From positions 1 through 64,000 of the forward strand of contig NZ_UEYQ01000009.1 in assembly GCF_900492205.1 (NCBI RefSeq): DNA of 64,000 nt. Direction: 5' to 3'. Positions 28,553-53,272 of this stretch are shown one piece after another. The first letter of the stretch is position 1; the number at the start of each line of letters is the position of its first letter. The notes under the pieces were generated by a model. The model ran no database searches. It saw nothing but the letters and a program-made list of their open reading frames with translations, and had not been told where the DNA came from. The position numbers and the translations under genes were made by a program. The DNA comes from Ciceribacter sp. T2.26MG-112.2. Lineage in GTDB: Bacteria; Pseudomonadota; Alphaproteobacteria; Rhizobiales; Rhizobiaceae.

Positions 28553-29440
28553 GTGACGTCACACCATCCGTTTGGAGGGAAGGTCCTCGACGAGACGAAG
28601 CTGGCACTCGGAGAGGGCCCGCTTTACGATCCCGAACTCGACTGCCTCTGGTGGTTCGATATTCTCGGCCAGAGCCTGCGGCAGCGGGACTTCGCCACCG
28701 GGTCAGTCATCACGCAGGCCCTGCCCTTCATGGGCAGCGTGATCGCCCGGATCGATGGTCACCGCCATCTCGTCGCGTCCGACCAGGGCCTGTTCCTGCG
28801 CGAGGTGGCCTCCGGTGCATTCAGCCCCTATTGCGAACTGGAGCCGTCGAGCCTCGGCAATCGTTCCAATGACGGGCGCGTGCATCCTTCCGGCGCACTG
28901 TGGATCGGCACGATGGGCAAGGATGCCGCAACCGGCGCCGGCGCGATCTACCATGTCGCCAACCAGACCGTGACCAAGCTTTTCGACAAGGTCAGCATTG
29001 CCAATTCGATCTGCTTCTCGCCCGACGGGGCCACCGGCTATTTCGTCGATTCCAAGGTCAACACGCTGATGCGTGTTCCATTGGACGCCGCGACCGGCCT
29101 TCCGACCGGCGATGCCAGCCTGTTCATCGATGGGCGTGACCGGCCGGGCGTGTTCGACGGCTCGGTCTGCGACGCCAGGGGCGATATCTGGAATGCGCGC
29201 TGGGGCGGCGGCGGGGTGGACCGATATGATCCGCAGGGCCGCCACCTGGCCCGCTACGACCTGCCGGCGCAGCGCGTGACCTGCCCGGCCTTCATCGGAC
29301 GCAATGCCGATCGGCTGATCGTCACCTCCTGCTGGGAGGGCCTCGACGACACCGGACGCGCTGCCGATCCTCTGGCGGGCGCAACGTTCGAGTTGGGCGC
29401 AACCGTCGAAGGCCGCATCGAGCCCGCCTTCAAGCTCTGA
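28553..29440 (+). CDS. SMP-30/gluconolactonase family sugar lactonase
   Basis: I use GTG at 28553 (GGGAGA ribosome site), giving 295 residues; an upstream TTG at 28523 adds ten unlikely residues. This is a six-bladed beta-propeller lactonase. Probable metal ligands are Glu21 (LGEGPLYDP), Asn151 (IANSICFSPDG) and Asp202 (VFDGSVCDARG), with substrate contacts near NRSNDGRVHPSG. Such enzymes open sugar lactones in oxidative sugar catabolism (for example arabinose, galactose or glucuronate routes). No sugar genes adjoin, so the substrate is open. It is divergent from the LuxR-type solo, which might control it. Confidence 0.9.
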   Translation: MTSHHPFGGKVLDETKLALGEGPLYDPELDCLWWFDILGQSLRQRDFATGSVITQALPFMGSVIARIDGHRHLVASDQGLFLREVASGAFSPYCELEPSSLGNRSNDGRVHPSGALWIGTMGKDAATGAGAIYHVANQTVTKLFDKVSIANSICFSPDGATGYFVDSKVNTLMRVPLDAATGLPTGDASLFIDGRDRPGVFDGSVCDARGDIWNARWGGGGVDRYDPQGRHLARYDLPAQRVTCPAFIGRNADRLIVTSCWEGLDDTGRAADPLAGATFELGATVEGRIEPAFKL

Positions 29441-29449
29441 TGAATTCGA

Positions 29450-29468
29450 GCCGGCGGTATCCGCCGGC
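29450..29468 (+). terminator. Terminator-like hairpin after the SMP-30 gene
   Basis: A perfect 8-bp stem, GCCGGCGG/CCGCCGGC, with a 3-base loop, starts 9 bases after the stop. The following CCCCTTGTC is only weakly T-rich. Confidence 0.55.
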
Positions 29469-29661
29469 CCCTTGTCGCAGATCTACCCCGACACGCAAAA
29501 TTGTTCCCTGCCAGGATGAAAATATTACCGGCAAGAGCGTGGGAACGAATAGGGACGACACGCATTTTCCTCTCGAACCGGCGTGATCGGCTCCGCCCAT
29601 CCCAAGGGCCAAGCCGATCGCGTCTTTCGCAAGACCATCTCAGAGGAAAGGTAGGTCCACC

Positions 29662-30270
29662 ATGAAAAAGACCCTCAACGCTTTCGCCGCCGCTGTTCTG
29701 CTCGGCTCGACCGCAATCGCTCCGCTCGCCTATGCCCAGGATGCGACCGCCCCGGCAGCAGGTACCGAGGCTCCGGCCGCTACCGGCACCGAGGCTCCGG
29801 TCGTCGCTCCGATGACCGACACGGCGCCGAATGCTGCCGCAACGACGCCGTCCGATCCGGCCGCCGCCAACTCCAACATGGCTGCCACGACCGATACCTA
29901 TCTGACCGAGCAGAGCGAAAGCCAGCTCAGCGCCAACAACTTCATCGGTCAGTCGGTCTATACCTCGGGCGATGAATCGATCGGCGAGATCAACGACCTG
30001 ATCATTGAAGAAAAGGGCGGCATCGTCGCTGCAGTGATCGGTGTCGGCGGCTTCCTCGGCATCGGCGAAAAGGATGTCGCCGTTCCGATGAGCAAGATCA
30101 CGGTCACCCGTGACGCAGACGATGCTGACGAACTTCGCCTGACGACCATGGAAACCGCCGAAACGCTGAAGGGCGCTCCGGAGTTCAAGAAGCTCGACGC
30201 CCAGGCTGACGCGGGTTCGACCATGACCCCGACCGACAACACCACCACCTCGTCGACGGTTACCAAGTAA
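29662..30270 (+). CDS. Secreted PRC-barrel domain protein
   Basis: The 202-residue protein begins with a clear signal peptide (KKTLNAFAAAVLLGSTAIAP ... AYAQ). An Ala/Thr/Pro-rich linker (about residues 27-80) precedes a PRC-barrel domain (about 90-170): NFIGQSVYTSGDESIGEIND, LIIEEKGGIVAAVIGVGGFLG. The tail is Thr-rich. PRC-barrel proteins of this exported type are common in rhizobia and are often stress-induced; function is unknown. ATG 29662 follows GAGGAAAGG. A strong terminator follows the gene, so it is monocistronic. Confidence 0.93.
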   Translation: MKKTLNAFAAAVLLGSTAIAPLAYAQDATAPAAGTEAPAATGTEAPVVAPMTDTAPNAAATTPSDPAAANSNMAATTDTYLTEQSESQLSANNFIGQSVYTSGDESIGEINDLIIEEKGGIVAAVIGVGGFLGIGEKDVAVPMSKITVTRDADDADELRLTTMETAETLKGAPEFKKLDAQADAGSTMTPTDNTTTSSTVTK

Positions 30271-30300
30271 CCTGGAACGAGGGACGTGTTGATCCCTTCG

Positions 30301-30324
30301 AGGGCGATGCTTCGGCATCGCCCT
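30301..30324 (+). terminator. Rho-independent terminator after the PRC-barrel gene
   Basis: A perfect 10-bp stem, AGGGCGATGC/GCATCGCCCT, with a TTCG tetraloop and a following TTTTGC. It is 30 bases after the stop. Confidence 0.92.
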
Positions 30325-31854: not shown

Positions 31855-33510
31855 TCAAAGGGCAGCGGCGCCCTTTTTGGCCGGAATGGCGCGGGTCAGC
31901 ATCACCTCGACGGCATCCGGGCTCAGCGGCTTCAGGATCACGTCGTTCATTCCCGCTGCGAAACACTCGTCACGATCACGCTCGAAAGCCTGAACCAGGA
32001 CGCCGATCACCGGCGTGGTGCGCCCTGTGCCGCGTTCCATCTCGCGGATGCGACGGCATGCCTCGAAGCCGTTGACGACCGGGAGCGTGACGTCCATCAG
32101 CACGATGTCGGGCTTCAACTCGTCGCACAGTCGCACGACTTCCTCGCCGTCGGCGGCGATCCGATAGGCATAGCCCAGCCCCTCGAGGATCTGCGCGAAG
32201 ACGATCTGGTTGATGTCGTTATCCTCGGCGACCAGGACGAACGGCGCCGCCTGATGCTCGAGGGGAGGATTGCGTTCGGCTTCCGCGGCATTGATCTGCC
32301 AATCATCGGCAGCTCCCTCCGGCTCCAGCCCGGCCAGCTTTTCCATCACGTGAAAGGCGAGTTCGGTATCGAGCTGGAAGCCGTCCAGCGTGATGGTGCC
32401 GATGCCGTAGGCGTCTGCCACTTCCAGGCATTTGACGTCCATCTGCGTGTCGACCAGGATCAGATCGATCCTGACGCCGACCGAGCGGGCGACGCTGAGA
32501 AAGGCTTCCTGCTCGGCCGCATCGCGCACGCAGCAGGCGTCGAGCCCGAGGCGCTGCAGCGTCTTGAGGCTCTTTGCCTCGAAATCGGTGTCGCCGGTGA
32601 CGAGCAGGGCCTTGCGACCCTGGGGGGCGGCATTGTGCTCGGCACGCGTACGGGCGTCTTCCGGCGGATAGGTTGTTCCTGAAACCGACGAGAGCGTCGC
32701 ATGGTCTCCGTCATCGGCTGGAGCCTGCGCCATGTCGTCGAAGCTGGTGACGACGAAATAGCGGCCGGGCTTGCCGACGCGCAGACTGCGCAGGACGACC
32801 CGCCGCACCATGCCCGCGCCGGGCTGAAGCTCGACCGCCGTCGCCGAAGGCGTCCCGGTCTCCAGGACATGCCGGGAAACGCTGGTCAGCCGCTCGGCAA
32901 TATCGTCGGCAAATGCGCCTGCCAGTGGTCCCGCCAACACGCTTTCGGCCGAAATATCCATGAAGCGGCAGAAGGCCTTGTTGACCGCGACCATGCCGAG
33001 ACTGCGATCCTGGACGAAGACCGGCTGTGCCAGGTTGTCGAGGATCTCCTCGGTCAGTTGCACGCGCTCGATGTCGGCGCGCCATTGCTCCTCGCGCTTC
33101 TTCTGCTCGGTGATATCGGTGATGACGCAGATACCGTGACCGGAGGCGAGCCTGCGCTTGGTGAGCCGGGTCCAGCGGCTCTGGCCATCGCATTGCTGGA
33201 CTTCGGAGCGTTCGCGCCAATGGGCGGAAATATGCTCGGCGATCCACTCGTCCCTGCTCTGCGCCGCATCGTCGCGACCGGCCGTCGCCGCGCCGCGCCA
33301 GCCGGCGTCATAGAGTGCCCCGAGATAGTCGCGCAGCCGCGTGCCGGGCGTAAAATACTGCGGGGGAACGGGGAAGTAGTTGCGGATCAGGCGGCTTGCA
33401 TAGATCAACTCATCGTTGCGATCGTAGACGATGAAAGCCACGGCCAAGGCTTCCGAGACGGCGTCGAGCATGGTCGTCTGCAACGATGCATCCGATACCC
33501 CGCTCACCAT
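31855..33510 (-). CDS. PAS and receiver-domain protein without histidine kinase
   Basis: The 551-residue protein has an N-terminal PAS-like domain (about residues 12-135, ending VITDITEQKKREEQWR), a second PAS (about 150-260), a receiver-like domain (about 298-395, with LILVDTQMD) and a C-terminal receiver (about 423-545). In the last, the acid pocket is Glu429/Asp430, the phosphoacceptor Asp473 (PDIVLMDVTLPVVNG) and Lys527 are intact, but the switch Thr is Leu505. No HisKA or HATPase domain is present. It would receive phosphate from another kinase and couple to PAS sensing. The following EAL protein is a plausible partner. Confidence 0.88.
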   Translation of the reverse strand: MVSGVSDASLQTTMLDAVSEALAVAFIVYDRNDELIYASRLIRNYFPVPPQYFTPGTRLRDYLGALYDAGWRGAATAGRDDAAQSRDEWIAEHISAHWRERSEVQQCDGQSRWTRLTKRRLASGHGICVITDITEQKKREEQWRADIERVQLTEEILDNLAQPVFVQDRSLGMVAVNKAFCRFMDISAESVLAGPLAGAFADDIAERLTSVSRHVLETGTPSATAVELQPGAGMVRRVVLRSLRVGKPGRYFVVTSFDDMAQAPADDGDHATLSSVSGTTYPPEDARTRAEHNAAPQGRKALLVTGDTDFEAKSLKTLQRLGLDACCVRDAAEQEAFLSVARSVGVRIDLILVDTQMDVKCLEVADAYGIGTITLDGFQLDTELAFHVMEKLAGLEPEGAADDWQINAAEAERNPPLEHQAAPFVLVAEDNDINQIVFAQILEGLGYAYRIAADGEEVVRLCDELKPDIVLMDVTLPVVNGFEACRRIREMERGTGRTTPVIGVLVQAFERDRDECFAAGMNDVILKPLSPDAVEVMLTRAIPAKKGAAAL

Positions 33511-33862
33511 CCATCATCCCCTTTTGGCCTGTCGTCACCAATACTGGTGCTACGCATCTACGATGTCGCTTCGAAAAATGCCGGGGTGCTGGGCGACCCG
33601 GCCGAAGCTACTATGTTTTACGCAACGCAACCGGACATGCCGAAGGAAGCCTTGAATTGGCGTGGGGCGGAATGAAGGACGTTTCGGCACCGCCCCTCCC
33701 CCTGCTGGCTAGGCAGCATTGCCGGAGAACATTTCAAGTCTGCGTTGAAACTATCGGCTCAAGCTTAAGGCGATCTTAATGGCGCATGCCAGTTGTCCCG
33801 CTTTCGCGCAACCGGTGCAGTTACCGCTTCCCTCGCAGCGCCGAATCCTCGAAAATGGTCAA
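33511..33862. other. Divergent region between the PAS-receiver gene and mutL
   Basis: About 350 bases. The only structured element seen is an inverted repeat CACCA-ATAC-TGGTG (33536-33549), 26 bases upstream of the PAS-receiver start, a possible operator. The frame of mutL is open upstream to 33779 but that part does not look like MutL. No small gene is supported. Confidence 0.5.
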
Positions 33863-35713
33863 ATGACCATCAAGCAACTCTCCGAAACACTCATCAACCA
33901 GATCGCCGCCGGCGAGGTCATCGAACGACCCGCGAGCGCGGCGAAGGAATTGATCGAGAACGCCATCGACGCAGGCGCCACGCGCATCGAGATCGCCACG
34001 GCCGGCGGCGGCAAGAGCCTGCTCAGGGTCGCCGACAACGGCTCTGGCATGGAGGCGGAGGATCTCGAGCTTGCCATCCGCCGCCACTGCACCTCGAAGA
34101 TCAGCGACACGCTGTTCGACATCCGCTCGCTCGGCTTTCGCGGCGAGGCGCTGCCGTCGATCGGCTCGGTCGCCAGGCTCAGCATCGCCAGCCGAAGGGC
34201 CGGCAGTTCGGAAGGAGCCGAGATCGTGGTCGCCGGCGGCAAGGTCTCCCCCGTTCGGCCGGCCGCCGCCAATCCGGGCACGACGGTCGAAGTGCGCGAC
34301 CTGTTCTTCGCCACCCCGGCCCGGCTGAAATTTCTCAAGACCGAAAAGGCCGAGGCTGCCGCGATCACCGAAGTGGTGAAGCGCATGGCGATCGCCTTTC
34401 CGGCGATCCGCTTCGTGCTGTCGGGCAGCGACCGCTCGACGCTGGAACTGCCGGCGACCGGCGACGATCATCTGGCGCGCATAGCCCAGGTGCTCGGCGC
34501 AGAGTTCCGCGACAATGCGATCGCGCTCGATGCGGAACGCGAGGATGTGCACCTTGGCGGCTTTGCCGGCCTGCCGACCTTCCATCGCGGCAATTCCGCC
34601 CATCAATATGCCTTCGTCAACGGTCGGCCGGTGCAGGACAAGCAGATCCTCTCGGCGATCCGCGGCGCCTATGCCGAGACCATGCCGCAGGGCCGCTATC
34701 CGGTCGCGGTGCTGGCGCTGACACTCGATCCGGCGCTGGTCGACGTCAATGTGCATCCGGCAAAATCGGATGTGCGGTTCCGCGATCCGGGTCTCGTGCG
34801 CGGCCTGATCGTCGGCGCCATCCGCGAGGCTTTGAAGCGCGAAGGCGACCGTGCCTCGACCACCGGGGCGGAGGGAATGCTGCGCGCCTTCAGGCCCGGT
34901 TTCCGCCCGACGGCTGCCGCGACATCCGGCGGCAATTGGAGTTTCCAGTCGTCGCCCTACCGGCCCTTCGCCGCCCCCCATTCACAGGAGACGGGCAATA
35001 CCGACTATCGACCGGGATTCGGCGAGGCGGCGCAGGCGTCCTTCGGCGAAACGGCGATGCCTGCGGCCCGCAGCGAAGGTCCTGGCGCTGGGCAAGCGCC
35101 GGGGGCACCGGGGGCGTCGGCGGAACCGGTCGCCTACCCGCTCGGGGCCGCCCGCGCCCAGGTCCATGCCAATTACATCGTCTCGCAGACCAGGGACGGG
35201 CTCGTGATCGTCGACCAGCACGCCGCCCATGAGCGGCTGGTGTTCGAGCAGATGCGCAAGGCGCTTTCCGGCCGGCGCCTGCCGTCGCAGGGCCTGCTGA
35301 TCCCGGAAATCGTCGACCTGCCGGAGGAAGACTGCGACCGCCTCATGGTGCATGCCACGTCGCTCGAACAACTGGGGCTCGCCATCGAGCGGTTCGGGCC
35401 CGGCGCGATCGCGGTGCGCGAGACCCCGGCCATGCTGGGCGAGATGGACGTGCCGGGCCTGATCCGCGAACTCGCCGACGAGATTGCCGAGTGGGACACG
35501 GCGCTGGGGCTTTCCGGCAAGCTGGAGCATGTCGCCGCCACCATGGCCTGTCATGGATCGGTGCGCTCCGGGCGGCAACTGCGCGTCGAGGAGATGAACG
35601 CGCTTCTGCGGCAGATGGAGGAGACGCCGGGCTCGGGCCAGTGCAATCACGGCCGGCCGACTTATGTCGAACTCAAGCTCTCCGACATCGAGCGGCTGTT
35701 CGGGCGAAGCTGA
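33863..35713 (+). CDS. mutL: DNA mismatch repair protein MutL
   Basis: The 616-residue protein starts at ATG 33863 ([20 protein letters not shown]). The GHKL ATPase motifs are intact: [20 protein letters not shown] (catalytic Glu), VADNGSGM, and [15 protein letters not shown] proline/glycine/alanine-rich linker (about residues 330-425) joins the C-terminal dimerisation domain (from about [20 protein letters not shown]). The C-terminal domain has no DQHA(x)2E(x)4E-type endonuclease set beyond [12 protein letters not shown], where [12 protein letters not shown] does match the start of that motif (D-Q-H-A-A-H-E-R). Endonuclease activity is therefore possible. It precedes DUF2093 on the same strand. 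Confidence 0.95.
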
Positions 35714-49310: not shown

Positions 49311-49937
49311 TTACTGGAACGGCTGCCACCAGTGCCTGTTCTGGTTGGCGGCCTTGGCCATCTTCTTGCGGCGCTTTTCCTTCTTGGATTCCGGCTCGCC
49401 GAGATCGGTCAAGGCTGCTTCGTCGGCCTTGCGGTATTCGGCCGGCGGATCGGAAAGGTAGCGGCGCTGGTCGAGATAGGCGCCCTTCTGCAACTGGCGT
49501 GCGTCGCGGAAGGCCTGCCACTTTTGCGTTTCGGTCATCGTGCCGTTGGTGCCGTAGCCGGCGAGCAGCGGTGAGCGGTAGCGCGGATTGTCGGCATTGG
49601 CGTCAGCCTCGGCGACGAGACGCTCACGCGCCTCTTCCGGGCTTTCCAGCCATTCCGGATTGTCCTTGCCGGCCAGCGACTGCTGCGGCGCGGCGAGCTC
49701 CGCCTTGGCGGTTTCCGGCGGCATGACCAGAGCCGGGCGCGGATTGTACTTGGTGCCCTTGTTCTTGTTCGGGTCCGAGCCGATCGACACGGCCGAGCCG
49801 ACGTCGTCGACCAATTGCTCCATGGCGGTCTTGTCGGTGCCGTAGGTGGGGCTGCCGACGCAGCCGGTCAGTGCGGAGCATGCGAGCAAAAGGCCGGCCA
49901 TACCGACGCCAACTCTGAACAATTCTGCCGATTTCAT
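49311..49937 (-). CDS. Predicted outer-membrane or periplasmic lipoprotein
   Basis: The 208-residue protein starts at ATG 49937 with a lipoprotein signal: VGMAGLLLACSALTGC, with the lipobox L-T-G-C at about residues 23-26. The mature part is hydrophilic, with PALVMPPETAKAELAAPQQS and WQAFRDARQLQKGAYLDQRR, and ends in a lysine-rich stretch then HWWQPFQ. I do not recognise a domain. It follows ileS on the same strand, with an 11-bp inverted repeat between the two genes. Function unknown. Confidence 0.85.
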   Translation of the reverse strand: MKSAELFRVGVGMAGLLLACSALTGCVGSPTYGTDKTAMEQLVDDVGSAVSIGSDPNKNKGTKYNPRPALVMPPETAKAELAAPQQSLAGKDNPEWLESPEEARERLVAEADANADNPRYRSPLLAGYGTNGTMTETQKWQAFRDARQLQKGAYLDQRRYLSDPPAEYRKADEAALTDLGEPESKKEKRRKKMAKAANQNRHWWQPFQ

Positions 49938-50027
49938 GAATGCCTTCGAGCCTCGCCGCTGGTTATGCTTTCGCCGACTGTCTTCCTTACTCGCCTGAGC
50001 GAAGAATTCGGCCAATTTCAGGCACAT

Positions 50028-50065
50028 TTACCGGATGACCGCCAAAAGCGCAAATCATCCGGTAA
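50028..50065. repeat. Perfect 11-bp inverted repeat just after ileS
   Basis: TTACCGGATGA (50028-50038) and TCATCCGGTAA (50055-50065) pair perfectly around a 16-base loop, 7 bases beyond the ileS stop. No T run follows on either strand, so it is not a classical terminator; it may stabilise the ileS 3' end or act with Rho. Confidence 0.75.
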
Positions 50066-50072
50066 CATTTCG

Positions 50073-53042
50073 TTAATGGCGGGCGGCCAGTTCGCGCAAG
50101 GCCTGGGCATCACGCGCCGAGACGTCCGGATAGTCCGGGTCGGAACCGACATCGCTGGTGATCTTCCACGAGCGGGCGCATTTCGTGCCTTCGGCAAGCT
50201 TCGGCTCGACCGCGACCCTGGTGCCGTCATCGAGACGGAAGGCCTCGACCGGGCCCTCTCCGCCGACGACTGCGATGCCCGAAGTGATGCAGATCTCGGC
50301 AAAGTCGAGACCGTCGAGCGCGGCCAGCAGCTCCGGATCGCCGACATGCACGACGGGGGCCGCTTCAAGCGACGAGCCGATACGCTTGTCCTTGCGCTCG
50401 ACTTCGAGCGCGCCGGTGACGGCACGGCGCACCGTGCGGACCTTTTTCCACTTTTCGGCCAACTCATTGTTCGACCAATCGGCCGGGATGGCCGGGAACT
50501 GTTCGAGATGGACCGACTCGGCATTCGGATCGCGCGACAGCCAGGCTTCCTCGGTGGTGAACGGCATCATCGGCGCGAACCACAGGACGAGGCAGTCGAA
50601 AAGCTTGCGGATGACGAACAGCGCGGACCGGCGCTTCAGGCTCGACGGCGCGTCGCAATAGAGCGTGTCCTTGCGGATGTCGAAGTAGAAGGCCGACAGC
50701 TCGACATTGGCGAAATCGGTCAGAGCGCGGGTGATGCGCTTGAAGTCGAAATCGTCATAGGCCTTGCGCACCACCTGGTCGAGTTCGGCCAGGCGATGCA
50801 GCATGAGCTTTTCGAGTTCCGGCAGATCTGCATAGGAAATCTCCTCGCCGGTGTCGTGGGCGAGCGTGCCGAGCATCCAGCGGATCGTGTTGCGGATCTT
50901 GCGGTAGGCGTCGATATTGGTCTGGATGATGGTCTTGCCGACGCGAAGGTCTTCCGCGTAGTCCGACGACATGACCCAGAGGCGCAGGATGTCGGCGCCG
51001 GCATCCTTCATGATGTCCTGGGGCGCGGTAACATTGCCCTTGGACTTCGACATCTTCTCGCCCTTCTCGTCCATGATGAAACCATGGGTGACGACGGCGT
51101 TATAGGGTGCCCGGCCACGCGTGGCGCAGCTTTCCAGGAGCGAGGAATGGAACCAGCCGCGATGCTGGTCCGAGCCTTCGAGATAGACGTCGGCCGGCCA
51201 TTTCAGGTCCGGGCGGTCTTCGAGCGTGAAGGTGTGGGTCGAGCCTGAATCGAACCAGACGTCGAGAATGTCGGTGACCATCAGCCACTTTTCGGCGTCA
51301 TGGGCATTGCCGAGGAAGCGTTCCTTGGCGCCTTCGGCGAACCAGGCGTCCGCCCCTTCCTTCTCGAAGGCCTCGAGGATGCGTTTGTTGACCTCTTCAT
51401 CCTGCAGCACATTGCCGGCGGCATCGGCGAAGACGCAGATGGGCACGCCCCAGGCGCGCTGACGCGACAGCACCCAGTCCGGGCGGCCTTCGATCATGGC
51501 GCGCAGGCGGTTCTGCCCAGCGGCCGGCACGAAACGCGTGTCGTCGATGGCCGAGAGGGCGCGAGAGCGCAGGGTCGTCCCGTCGCCGAGGTCCTTGTCC
51601 ATGTAGACGAACCATTGCGGCGTGTTGCGGAAGATGACCGGCTTCTTGGAGCGCCAGGAATGCGGATAGTCATGCTTGACGCGGCCGCGGGCAAACAGGT
51701 TGTTCGCCGCGATCAGGGCATCCATGACGCGCTTGTTGGCATCGCCCTTCTTGCCGTTGTCGTCAATGACGCGAGCGGGACCGCCCTCGGCTGACGGACC
51801 GAAGCCCGGCGCATCCTCGGTGTAGAAACCGGCGTCGTCGACGGTGAAGGGGATCTTGGACGAGATGCCGCGCGCCTCGAGTTCGCGGGCATGGTGCATC
51901 CAGATGTCAAAGTCCTCGCGGCCATGGCCGGGCGCGGTGTGCACGAAGCCGGTACCGGCGTCGTCGGTGACGTGGTCGCCGTCGAGCAGAGGAACGTCGA
52001 ATGTGTAGCCCAAGTCGGCCAACGGGTGGGCGCAACGTAGACCTGCCAATACCTGGCTTGGCACATCGTACAATCGTTCGGCTTCCACCTTCGCCTTCGC
52101 GAAGCACTCCTTCGCAAGATTGTCGGCGAAAATCACACGTTCGCCCGGTCGAGGACCAAATGAGTTTTCAGCAGCTGTTATCTTGTAGAGCCCGTATCGA
52201 ACACGCGATGAGAACGAGATCGCCCGGTTACCTGGTATCGTCCAAGGAGTAGTCGTCCAGATCACCACGAAGTCGCCAGGGAATACATGATGCATCTCTT
52301 CATCGGTCGGGGGACTAGAGAGTTCAATCCCACCCCACGCCGGTCCGGCCCCACCCACCAGATACTTGACCGGGAACTTCACCCAGATCGTGTCGCTCTC
52401 GACCTCGTGATACTCCACCTCGGCTTCCGCCAGCGCGGTGCGCTCGACGACCGACCACATGATCGGCTTGGAGCCGCGATAGAGCTGGCCGGACATGGCG
52501 AGCTTCAGGAGTTCGCCGGCGATGCGGCTTTCGGCGTGGAAGTTCATGGTGGTGTAGGGGCGGTCGAAATCGCCCTCGATGCCGAGACGGCGGAATTCTT
52601 CCGACTGGATGTCGATCCAGCCTTGGGCGAATTCGCGGCATTCCTTGCGGAATTCGTTGACCGGGACTTCGTTCTTGTCCTTGCCCCTGGCGCGATAGGC
52701 TTCCTCGATCTTCCATTCGATCGGCAGGCCGTGGCAATCCCAGCCGGGCACATAGTTGGCATCATAGCCGCGCATCTGGAACGAGCGGGTGATGACGTCC
52801 TTCAGCACCTTGTTCAGCGCATGGCCGATGTGGATGTTGCCGTTGGCATAGGGAGGGCCGTCATGCAGGACGAATTTCTCGCGGCCGGCAGCGGAAGCGC
52901 GAAGTCTCTTGTAGAGCTCCATGTCCTTCCACTTCCTTGCCATTTCCGGCTCCTTCTGCGGCAGTCCGGCGCGCATCGGGAATTCGGTCTGGGGCAGGTA
53001 GAGGGTGGAGGAATAGTCTACTTTTTCAGTGGTATCGGTCAT
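50073..53042 (-). CDS. ileS: Isoleucyl-tRNA synthetase
   Basis: The 989-residue class I enzyme starts at ATG 53042 ([20 protein letters not shown]); an upstream in-frame start at 53081 is possible. HIGH is at residues 71-74 ([14 protein letters not shown]), KMSKS near 662 ([10 protein letters not shown]), and the CP1 editing block [16 protein letters not shown] near 255. Codon use changes sharply between about 51985 and 52365 (residues 226-352): AGT, ATA, GTA, TCA, CGA and CCA appear often there and rarely elsewhere in the gene. The frame and key editing residues stay intact, so a functional mosaic gene is likely. Confidence 0.96.
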
Positions 53043-53272
53043 GATCTTGCCATCGAGGGGCGCCCGGAACGGGTCGCGCATTGGTCGTGTAAATCGCGGT
53101 GACGGAGAGCGTTCAGATAAACGCCGAAAACCCGGACCCTCCGGCAGCTTTCACAGCGCGCGGAAGGCCGGGCCCATAATTCGAAGGGATATGGTCAGCC
53201 GAACCCTGGTCATTGTGGGCGTTGTTTAAGGGGTTTTGCGGCGAAAAGGAAGAGGTGCGGCGCGGCAAATGA

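Follow-up and report, generated by a model that had tools for sequence, protein, structure and literature searches.

Essential translation enzymes are usually regarded as slow and uniform in their evolution, and the modular exchange of specificity domains is known from proteins of another kind, through the target-recognition domains of HsdS. For aminoacyl-tRNA synthetases, it has been reported in the main text of an earlier study that TyrRS, ThrRS and SerRS occur as homeoalleles, that is as two whole-gene forms with a patchy distribution within a taxon and usually with one form per genome; some of these have been exchanged by recombination in conserved flanks, and the possibility is raised there that antibiotics are the cause (PMC3191353). 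In a second study, segmentally variable genes have been described, whose otherwise conserved products contain a segment of high variability that was proposed to follow interactions, and ProRS is named in this context (PMC387263). The word "isoleucyl" is absent from the main text of both papers. Furthermore, mupirocin-insensitive, eukaryote-like IleRS enzymes have been described as whole-gene variants among bacteria (PMC4861432). Neither cassette exchange nor a hypervariable loop in IleRS is described in the titles and abstract openings surveyed here, mainly outside subscription journals and preprints.

Here we analysed the isoleucyl-tRNA synthetase gene ileS of a rhizobial soil bacterium within a window of 64,000 nucleotides, the whole stretch of DNA under study. 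It had originally been predicted that a codon-usage patch within this gene, at window positions 51985-52365, was acquired from a foreign ileS. Our data show that the patch is a recombined cassette and that its counterparts have been replaced repeatedly in related genomes, and they suggest that the replaced block is one of many old versions, some recurring in distant relatives, and that nature may reward difference in its loop. The features are as follows.

50073..53042, minus strand: ileS, isoleucyl-tRNA synthetase, 989 amino acids (from the ORF translation, PF00133, PF08264 and PDB matches)
51984..52370, minus strand: cassette exchanged by recombination, spanning residues 225 to about 353 in the CP1 editing domain (from breakpoints, trees and GC3)
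52272..52370, minus strand: hypervariable surface loop, residues 225-257, the centre of exchange (10-53 amino acids in 157 relatives)
52203..52271, minus strand: conserved editing strand, residues 258-280, carrying TTTPWT
51984..52202, minus strand: the cassette's other variable part, at residues 281-353 (from the sister comparison and close pairs)
52227..52256, minus strand: editing motif [10 protein letters not shown] at residues 263-272 (from the 157-sequence alignment)
51912..51956, minus strand: second editing motif [15 protein letters not shown] at residues 363-377, immediately beyond the cassette

Like the homeoalleles, the cassette alleles of ileS are divergent and usually present once per genome, with the same function suggested by their intact residues, and the exchanged piece conflicts with the remaining gene in phylogeny, as seen in AU tests. 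However, homeoalleles are whole genes in two forms, whereas ileS has many forms of a 129-codon piece while its flanks group with those of sister species; with breakpoints at codons 225 and about 353, this is not an exchange of the whole gene. ileS also resembles the segmentally variable genes in having one long variable segment, as judged from entropy and pair profiles rather than by the published numeric criteria, but differs from them in that alleles are seen to move between close species and loop families recur in several genera. The mupirocin-insensitive enzymes are likewise variant IleRS forms in bacteria; the ileS product studied here, in contrast, is of type 1 and varies in a cassette. 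With HsdS, ileS shares an interchangeable variable module between conserved flanks, although IleRS is an essential cytoplasmic enzyme and not a restriction or surface protein.

The start of ileS was taken at 53042 (MTDTTEK); a longer ORF can be read from 53081. The product contains the HIGH and KMSKS motifs of a class I synthetase, matches PF00133 (E 4.3e-132) and PF08264, and has its best PDB matches in 8c9e, 8c9f and 1ffy. It is closer to IleRS1 (8c9e, 2.8e-210) than to the mupirocin-insensitive IleRS2 (8c9d, 2.1e-69) and hence a type 1 enzyme, and with a threonine-rich motif and the pattern GTG.VHTAP.HG..D it has a CP1 editing domain. A search of its own genome gave a single DNA match for the patch, and there is therefore no second copy and no template copy of the variable region of the kind that marks a diversity-generating retroelement. 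The cassette protein was matched in 380 of 394 family genomes, nearly all with one match and five with two. Two long antisense ORFs overlap ileS on the plus strand (49815-51248, 477 amino acids; 52287-53102, 271 amino acids) and were taken as spurious.

The closest named ileS relatives are those of Rhizobium sp. EaCA-2 (L066), Ciceribacter selenitireducens (L067) and a metagenome-assembled genome (MAG) titled Arenimonas (L068). The last record (JAIBEK010000009.1, Arenimonas sp. MAG) matches the rhizobial window at 91-92% over ileS and about 10 kb around it, and is probably mislabelled or mis-binned. Compared with these three sisters, the flanks of ileS share 96-99% of their amino acids and 91-96% of their bases, whereas identity in residues 258-353 is only 60-66% and 59-62%, respectively; synonymous sites within the block are nearly saturated, and the sisters carry unrelated surface loops. 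The transition is sharp: codons 181-224 contain only one or two codon differences, and divergence runs from codon 225 to near 353 (52370 to 51984) in all three comparisons, so that the predicted coordinates were right to within a few bases. In agreement with this, blastn alignments break off at 52359-52369 and restart at 52010-52035, with a single exception within the gap, an 84-base piece shared with L068. The three sisters are also unlike one another in the same block. In the conserved strand 258-280 the protein agrees with those of the sisters at 91-96% of amino acid positions. Where the residue is shared, however, the codon differs in 55-74% of cases, compared with 8-21% at identical residues in the flanks; this codon turnover at identical residues means that rapid amino acid change alone is no explanation.

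Among 50 ORFs of the window that were compared, ileS has the deepest local dip in identity against each of two sister genomes. That such dips are usual in class I synthetases was rejected for valS, in which 60-codon identity to the two sisters never falls below 0.83 and 0.85. The ORF with the second-deepest dip, 29257-30318, was dropped as it reads by eye like a spurious frame. Two further ORFs, 33779-35710 (plus strand) and 31858-33510 (minus strand), dip against genome G033 to 60-codon identities of 0.64 and 0.58, drops of 0.26 and 0.24; against genome G008, the latter drops by 0.11 and the former lies outside the twelve largest dips. Within ileS itself, residues 381-400 (51843-51902) form a second, weaker variable spot, which is locally divergent in 17 of 178 close pairs.

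Comparing the phylogeny of the patch with that of its flanks had been proposed as a check, and the two gave opposite groupings. Trees of the cassette and of the flanks were built separately with a quick IQ-TREE run from 41 chosen rows out of 157, and the groups for the AU tests were picked after the identities had been seen. The flank tree unites the window and its three sisters in one clade (SH-aLRT 95), and the flank data reject a clade of the window with L205 and L206, both from genera other than that of the window but within its family (AU p 8e-6). The cassette tree gives the opposite: the window, L205 and L206 come together (SH-aLRT 100), and the sister clade is rejected (AU p 0.009). The flank data also reject three further groups based on loops: L066 with Mycoplana azooxidifex L117 (p 1e-6), L105 with L226, L209 and L273 (p 5e-44), and L097 with L103 and L261 (p 1e-5). 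The cassette tree contains some long branches, and its free search missed a better tree uniting L066 and L117. Some loop families are not clades in it (L105, for example, sits with its flank relatives), because this tree also uses residues 258-353. L066 pairs with L117 by its loop but with L073 in the cassette tree, and therefore the cassettes are themselves mosaic. Taken together, the sharp breakpoints, the near-saturated synonymous sites between near-identical flanks and the opposite trees make it almost certain that the patch in the window lineage is the product of recombination.

Replacement at this site is recurrent. For this analysis we used 94 distinct ileS sequences from 110 rows, leaving out 14 identical copies as well as L102 and L107, the latter two of which are included in the larger set of 157. 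Identity in residues 258-347 lies more than 0.12 below the rest in 46 of the 159 close pairs (flanks more than 90% identical) among the 94 sequences, whereas only 0, 1 or 2 of the 159 show this drop in 13 equally sized control windows that partly overlap. In the set of 157 sequences, 178 close pairs, which share sequences and are thus not independent, have both parts replaced in 56 cases, the loop alone in 80 and neither in 42; the remainder of the cassette (258-353) is never replaced without the loop, and the loop is therefore the centre of exchange. The single event implied by the prediction thus holds as a replacement, but not as a single one, since the pattern is recurrent and multi-allelic.

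Outside the family, L286 and L287 show the same pattern (flank DNA identity 0.95, cassette 0.69, loop 3%), while among the 40 closest pairs listed for the other families the g155 rows, apart from L339, carry short and similar 11-residue loops. Cassette exchange as a feature of all bacteria was rejected: across four annotated E. coli chromosomes the length of ileS is constant, this region differs by a few amino acids at most, and no loop is replaced in these genes. A 401-base CP1 piece of E. coli (L367:2700-3100) nevertheless diverges more than a control piece of ileS across E. coli: it matched 4228 of 5375 records at 90-95% identity, compared with 777 of 5375 for the control. The source record, L367 (CP054241.1 313902-319747), belongs to the 834 kb E. 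coli "plasmid pBone7_3" and carries the chromosomal ribF-ileS-lspA block; its ileS is missing from the PLSDB gene table and has 32 stops in frame from the usual start.

The loop ranges from 10 to 53 amino acids in the 157 sequences and has 11 in 64 of them. At E 0.01, the 78 loops of at least 20 amino acids fall into 53 families, of which 39 are singletons and 14 have at least two members, and 70 directed loop-loop matches were obtained compared with none for one shuffled loop set. The window loop does not match those of its sisters, but is 82% identical to that of L205 over 28 amino acids (flanks 77% identical) and 59% identical to that of L206 over 32. Common loops are also found in far-apart hosts, as in L066 and L117 (75% over 36 amino acids) and in L097 and L261 (78% over 37), and further flank-distant hosts with a common loop are L105 with L209, L226 and L273, L070 with L139, L028 with L081, and L015 with L071. 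Loops common to flank sisters (L231/L235, L209/L226, L205/L206, L097/L103 and L237/L260) may have been inherited. The genome collections hold one genome per species, so that the polymorphism is inferred across species.

In 12 loop pairs from eight shared families, loop pS (0.66-0.93) exceeds 3' flank pS of the same pairs (0.41-0.60) in 12 of 12; the weaker codon bias of the loops raises pS, and import between species would give the same pattern, including the loops common to several genera, as a balanced trans-species polymorphism with allele lineages that predate their host species. The pN/pS ratio in these pairs is 0.18-0.37, in loops that are short (29-37 codons), whose pS is inflated by the weaker codon bias, and that are still alike enough to be paired, which biases the test towards constrained loops and places 39 of the 78, the singletons, outside it. 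On these sequence comparisons the matchable loops look old and under purifying selection, and no recent transfer was seen among the loop pairs compared.

The unusual codon usage of the patch is real. GC3 is 0.597 in codons 225-353 (51984-52370, minus strand) and 0.833 in the remainder of ileS. A sliding window, as had been suggested, has its minimum on the patch: the lowest 129-codon window begins at codon 223, the lowest non-overlapping one has 0.783, and none of 10,000 codon shuffles reached the observed minimum. Six listed rare codons occur 12 times in the 129 patch codons and 3 times in the 860 others (Fisher p 5e-9), with the codon set taken from the original prediction, where it was picked after the patch had been seen. 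However, the step from this bias to a foreign donor is not supported. Patch GC3 is below every same-size flank window in 37 of 94 ileS sequences and not so in 57. In the 90 alleles whose loops exceed 12 amino acids, the loop has a median GC3 deficit of 0.256, compared with 0.090 in the 67 shorter ones; for residues 258-353 the medians are 0.058 and 0.008, respectively, the p values for these differences ignoring relatedness. In all 21 long-loop rows listed, from hosts with flank GC3 of 0.66-0.88, loop GC3 is 0.02 to 0.40 below that of the host flanks; some long-loop alleles, e.g. L017 and L129, have ordinary GC3. Low GC3 thus tends to go with the long-loop allele class whatever the host and is mostly a property of this class, and because of this it is by itself no mark of a foreign donor; the reading of codon bias as evidence for a foreign host was dismissed on the same ground. 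The 90 alleles with loops of more than 12 amino acids tend to stay low in GC3 in GC-rich hosts, and the matchable ones look old.

Cassette DNA found no recent donor in the 394 family genomes, the best match being 69% over 332 of 381 bases, with shorter matches in the conserved strand of up to 88% over 65 bases; a protein search of the same genomes found two homologous loops, in G200 and G439 (L205 and L206). No donor was found in plasmids (28 records, best 64%) or phages (4 records, under 60%), and none was confirmed in viral contigs.

The location of the patch in the CP1 editing domain and its intact frame and motif [10 protein letters not shown] had been recognized correctly, but the suggested effects on proofreading or antibiotic sensitivity are not supported. 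T263-T265, H368, H373 and D377, which we take to be the key editing positions of IleRS, are invariant in all 157 sequences. In the first motif I269 and N272 are each changed in 1 of 157 and the other eight positions are invariant, and in the second, position 372 is S or G and positions 370, 375 and 376 vary in 1 to 6 of 157; extraction of ileS demanded a T-T/A-P-W-T motif, by which no locus was lost in this set. Mupirocin acts at the synthetic site of IleRS. An AlphaFold model of residues 195-414 has a mean pLDDT of 73, with values below 50 at 195-216 (the cut end), 231-245 and 249-251, and places the loop as a low-confidence hairpin tip between two strands; its best structure matches are IleRS 8c9f, 8c9e and 1wny, followed by LeuRS editing domains. 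Since the key residues are invariant and the model matches IleRS structures, it is most likely that the enzyme edits normally and that the variable part is an exposed surface.

How can this pattern be explained? On balance we lean, at somewhat better than even chance, towards an old open set of interchangeable CP1 cassettes whose diversity is kept by selection on the loop surface. The patch would be one allele of this set, homologous recombination via the conserved flanks would swap the cassette between species, and the exchange would centre on the hairpin loop (225-257) and often drag residues 258-353 along. That selection on the loop surface keeps the alleles diverse is, as a claim of its own, probable. 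Its cause is a more tentative matter; our best guess is an antagonist, such as a phage protein, a bacteriocin-like toxin or another inhibitor, which might dock on the exposed loop and which rare loops would escape. We know of no antagonist of the IleRS loop, and none that binds it was found in the titles and abstract openings surveyed, mainly outside subscription journals and preprints; selection by a loop-binding agent seems the best single account because the alleles are interchangeable, partly constrained and situated on an exposed surface. The stronger idea, that IleRS carries an MHC-like balanced polymorphism in which dozens of old loops are shuttled across rhizobial genera through undiscovered loop-binding antagonists, is a conjecture that we would sooner expect to fail than to hold. 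Neutral modular exchange, in which a permissive loop accepts harmless imports, the flanks are conserved enough for strand exchange, and drift acts among many donors, is unlikely but has points in its favour: the hairpin tip is of low model confidence, the key editing residues are preserved, 39 of the 78 long loops have no detectable relative, and the pN/pS test could see conserved loops only. However, the ratios of 0.18-0.37 indicate constraint on the testable families, control windows of ileS are almost never replaced (0-2 of 159), and no replacement of residues 258-353 was seen without that of the loop. It has also to be considered that the loop binds a cellular partner, a protein or tRNA feature, which differs between lineages and travels or evolves together with it; this would fit the constraint and recurrence of some loop families, but sisters whose IleRS flanks are 96-97% identical carry unrelated loops and the partner would need to change equally fast, which renders such co-adaptation quite improbable.

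A single import from one foreign, lower-GC ileS would account for the low GC3 and the recombination signature; nonetheless we consider it very improbable, as low GC3 follows long-loop alleles in hosts with flank GC3 of 0.66-0.88, each of the three sisters has a different cassette at the same place, plasmids, phages and viral contigs yielded no donor, and recurrence in 46 of 159 close pairs further weakens it. The recombination part of the original prediction is supported, by breakpoints and opposite trees, and the foreign donor is not. A recombination-free origin through local hypermutation or very rapid change in situ is hardly credible and was rejected on account of loops common to distant genera: although divergent alleles are often private and there is no near-identical donor, the window loop is homologous to loops of two other genera and unmatched among its sisters, so that the same loop would need a convergent origin in the window lineage, the cassette and flank trees are opposite, and the genome itself has no second copy of the patch. 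An assembly or sequencing artefact might be invoked for a draft of 80 contigs, but the reading frame and motif are intact, and the same kind of break in independent genomes refutes this in practice.

These findings have several implications. Local codon bias should not be read as proof of a foreign donor, and this part of ileS should be avoided when species trees of this family are built. If the cassettes do form an old, open and interchangeable set under selection on the loop surface, a loop adjoining the proofreading site of IleRS would act much as antigens or recognition modules do, through old alleles, at least some of them constrained, that cross genera. The diversity of the loop suggests that some hidden conflict or partner targets IleRS, and the exact cassettes that have been defined here may be used for swaps to find this agent.
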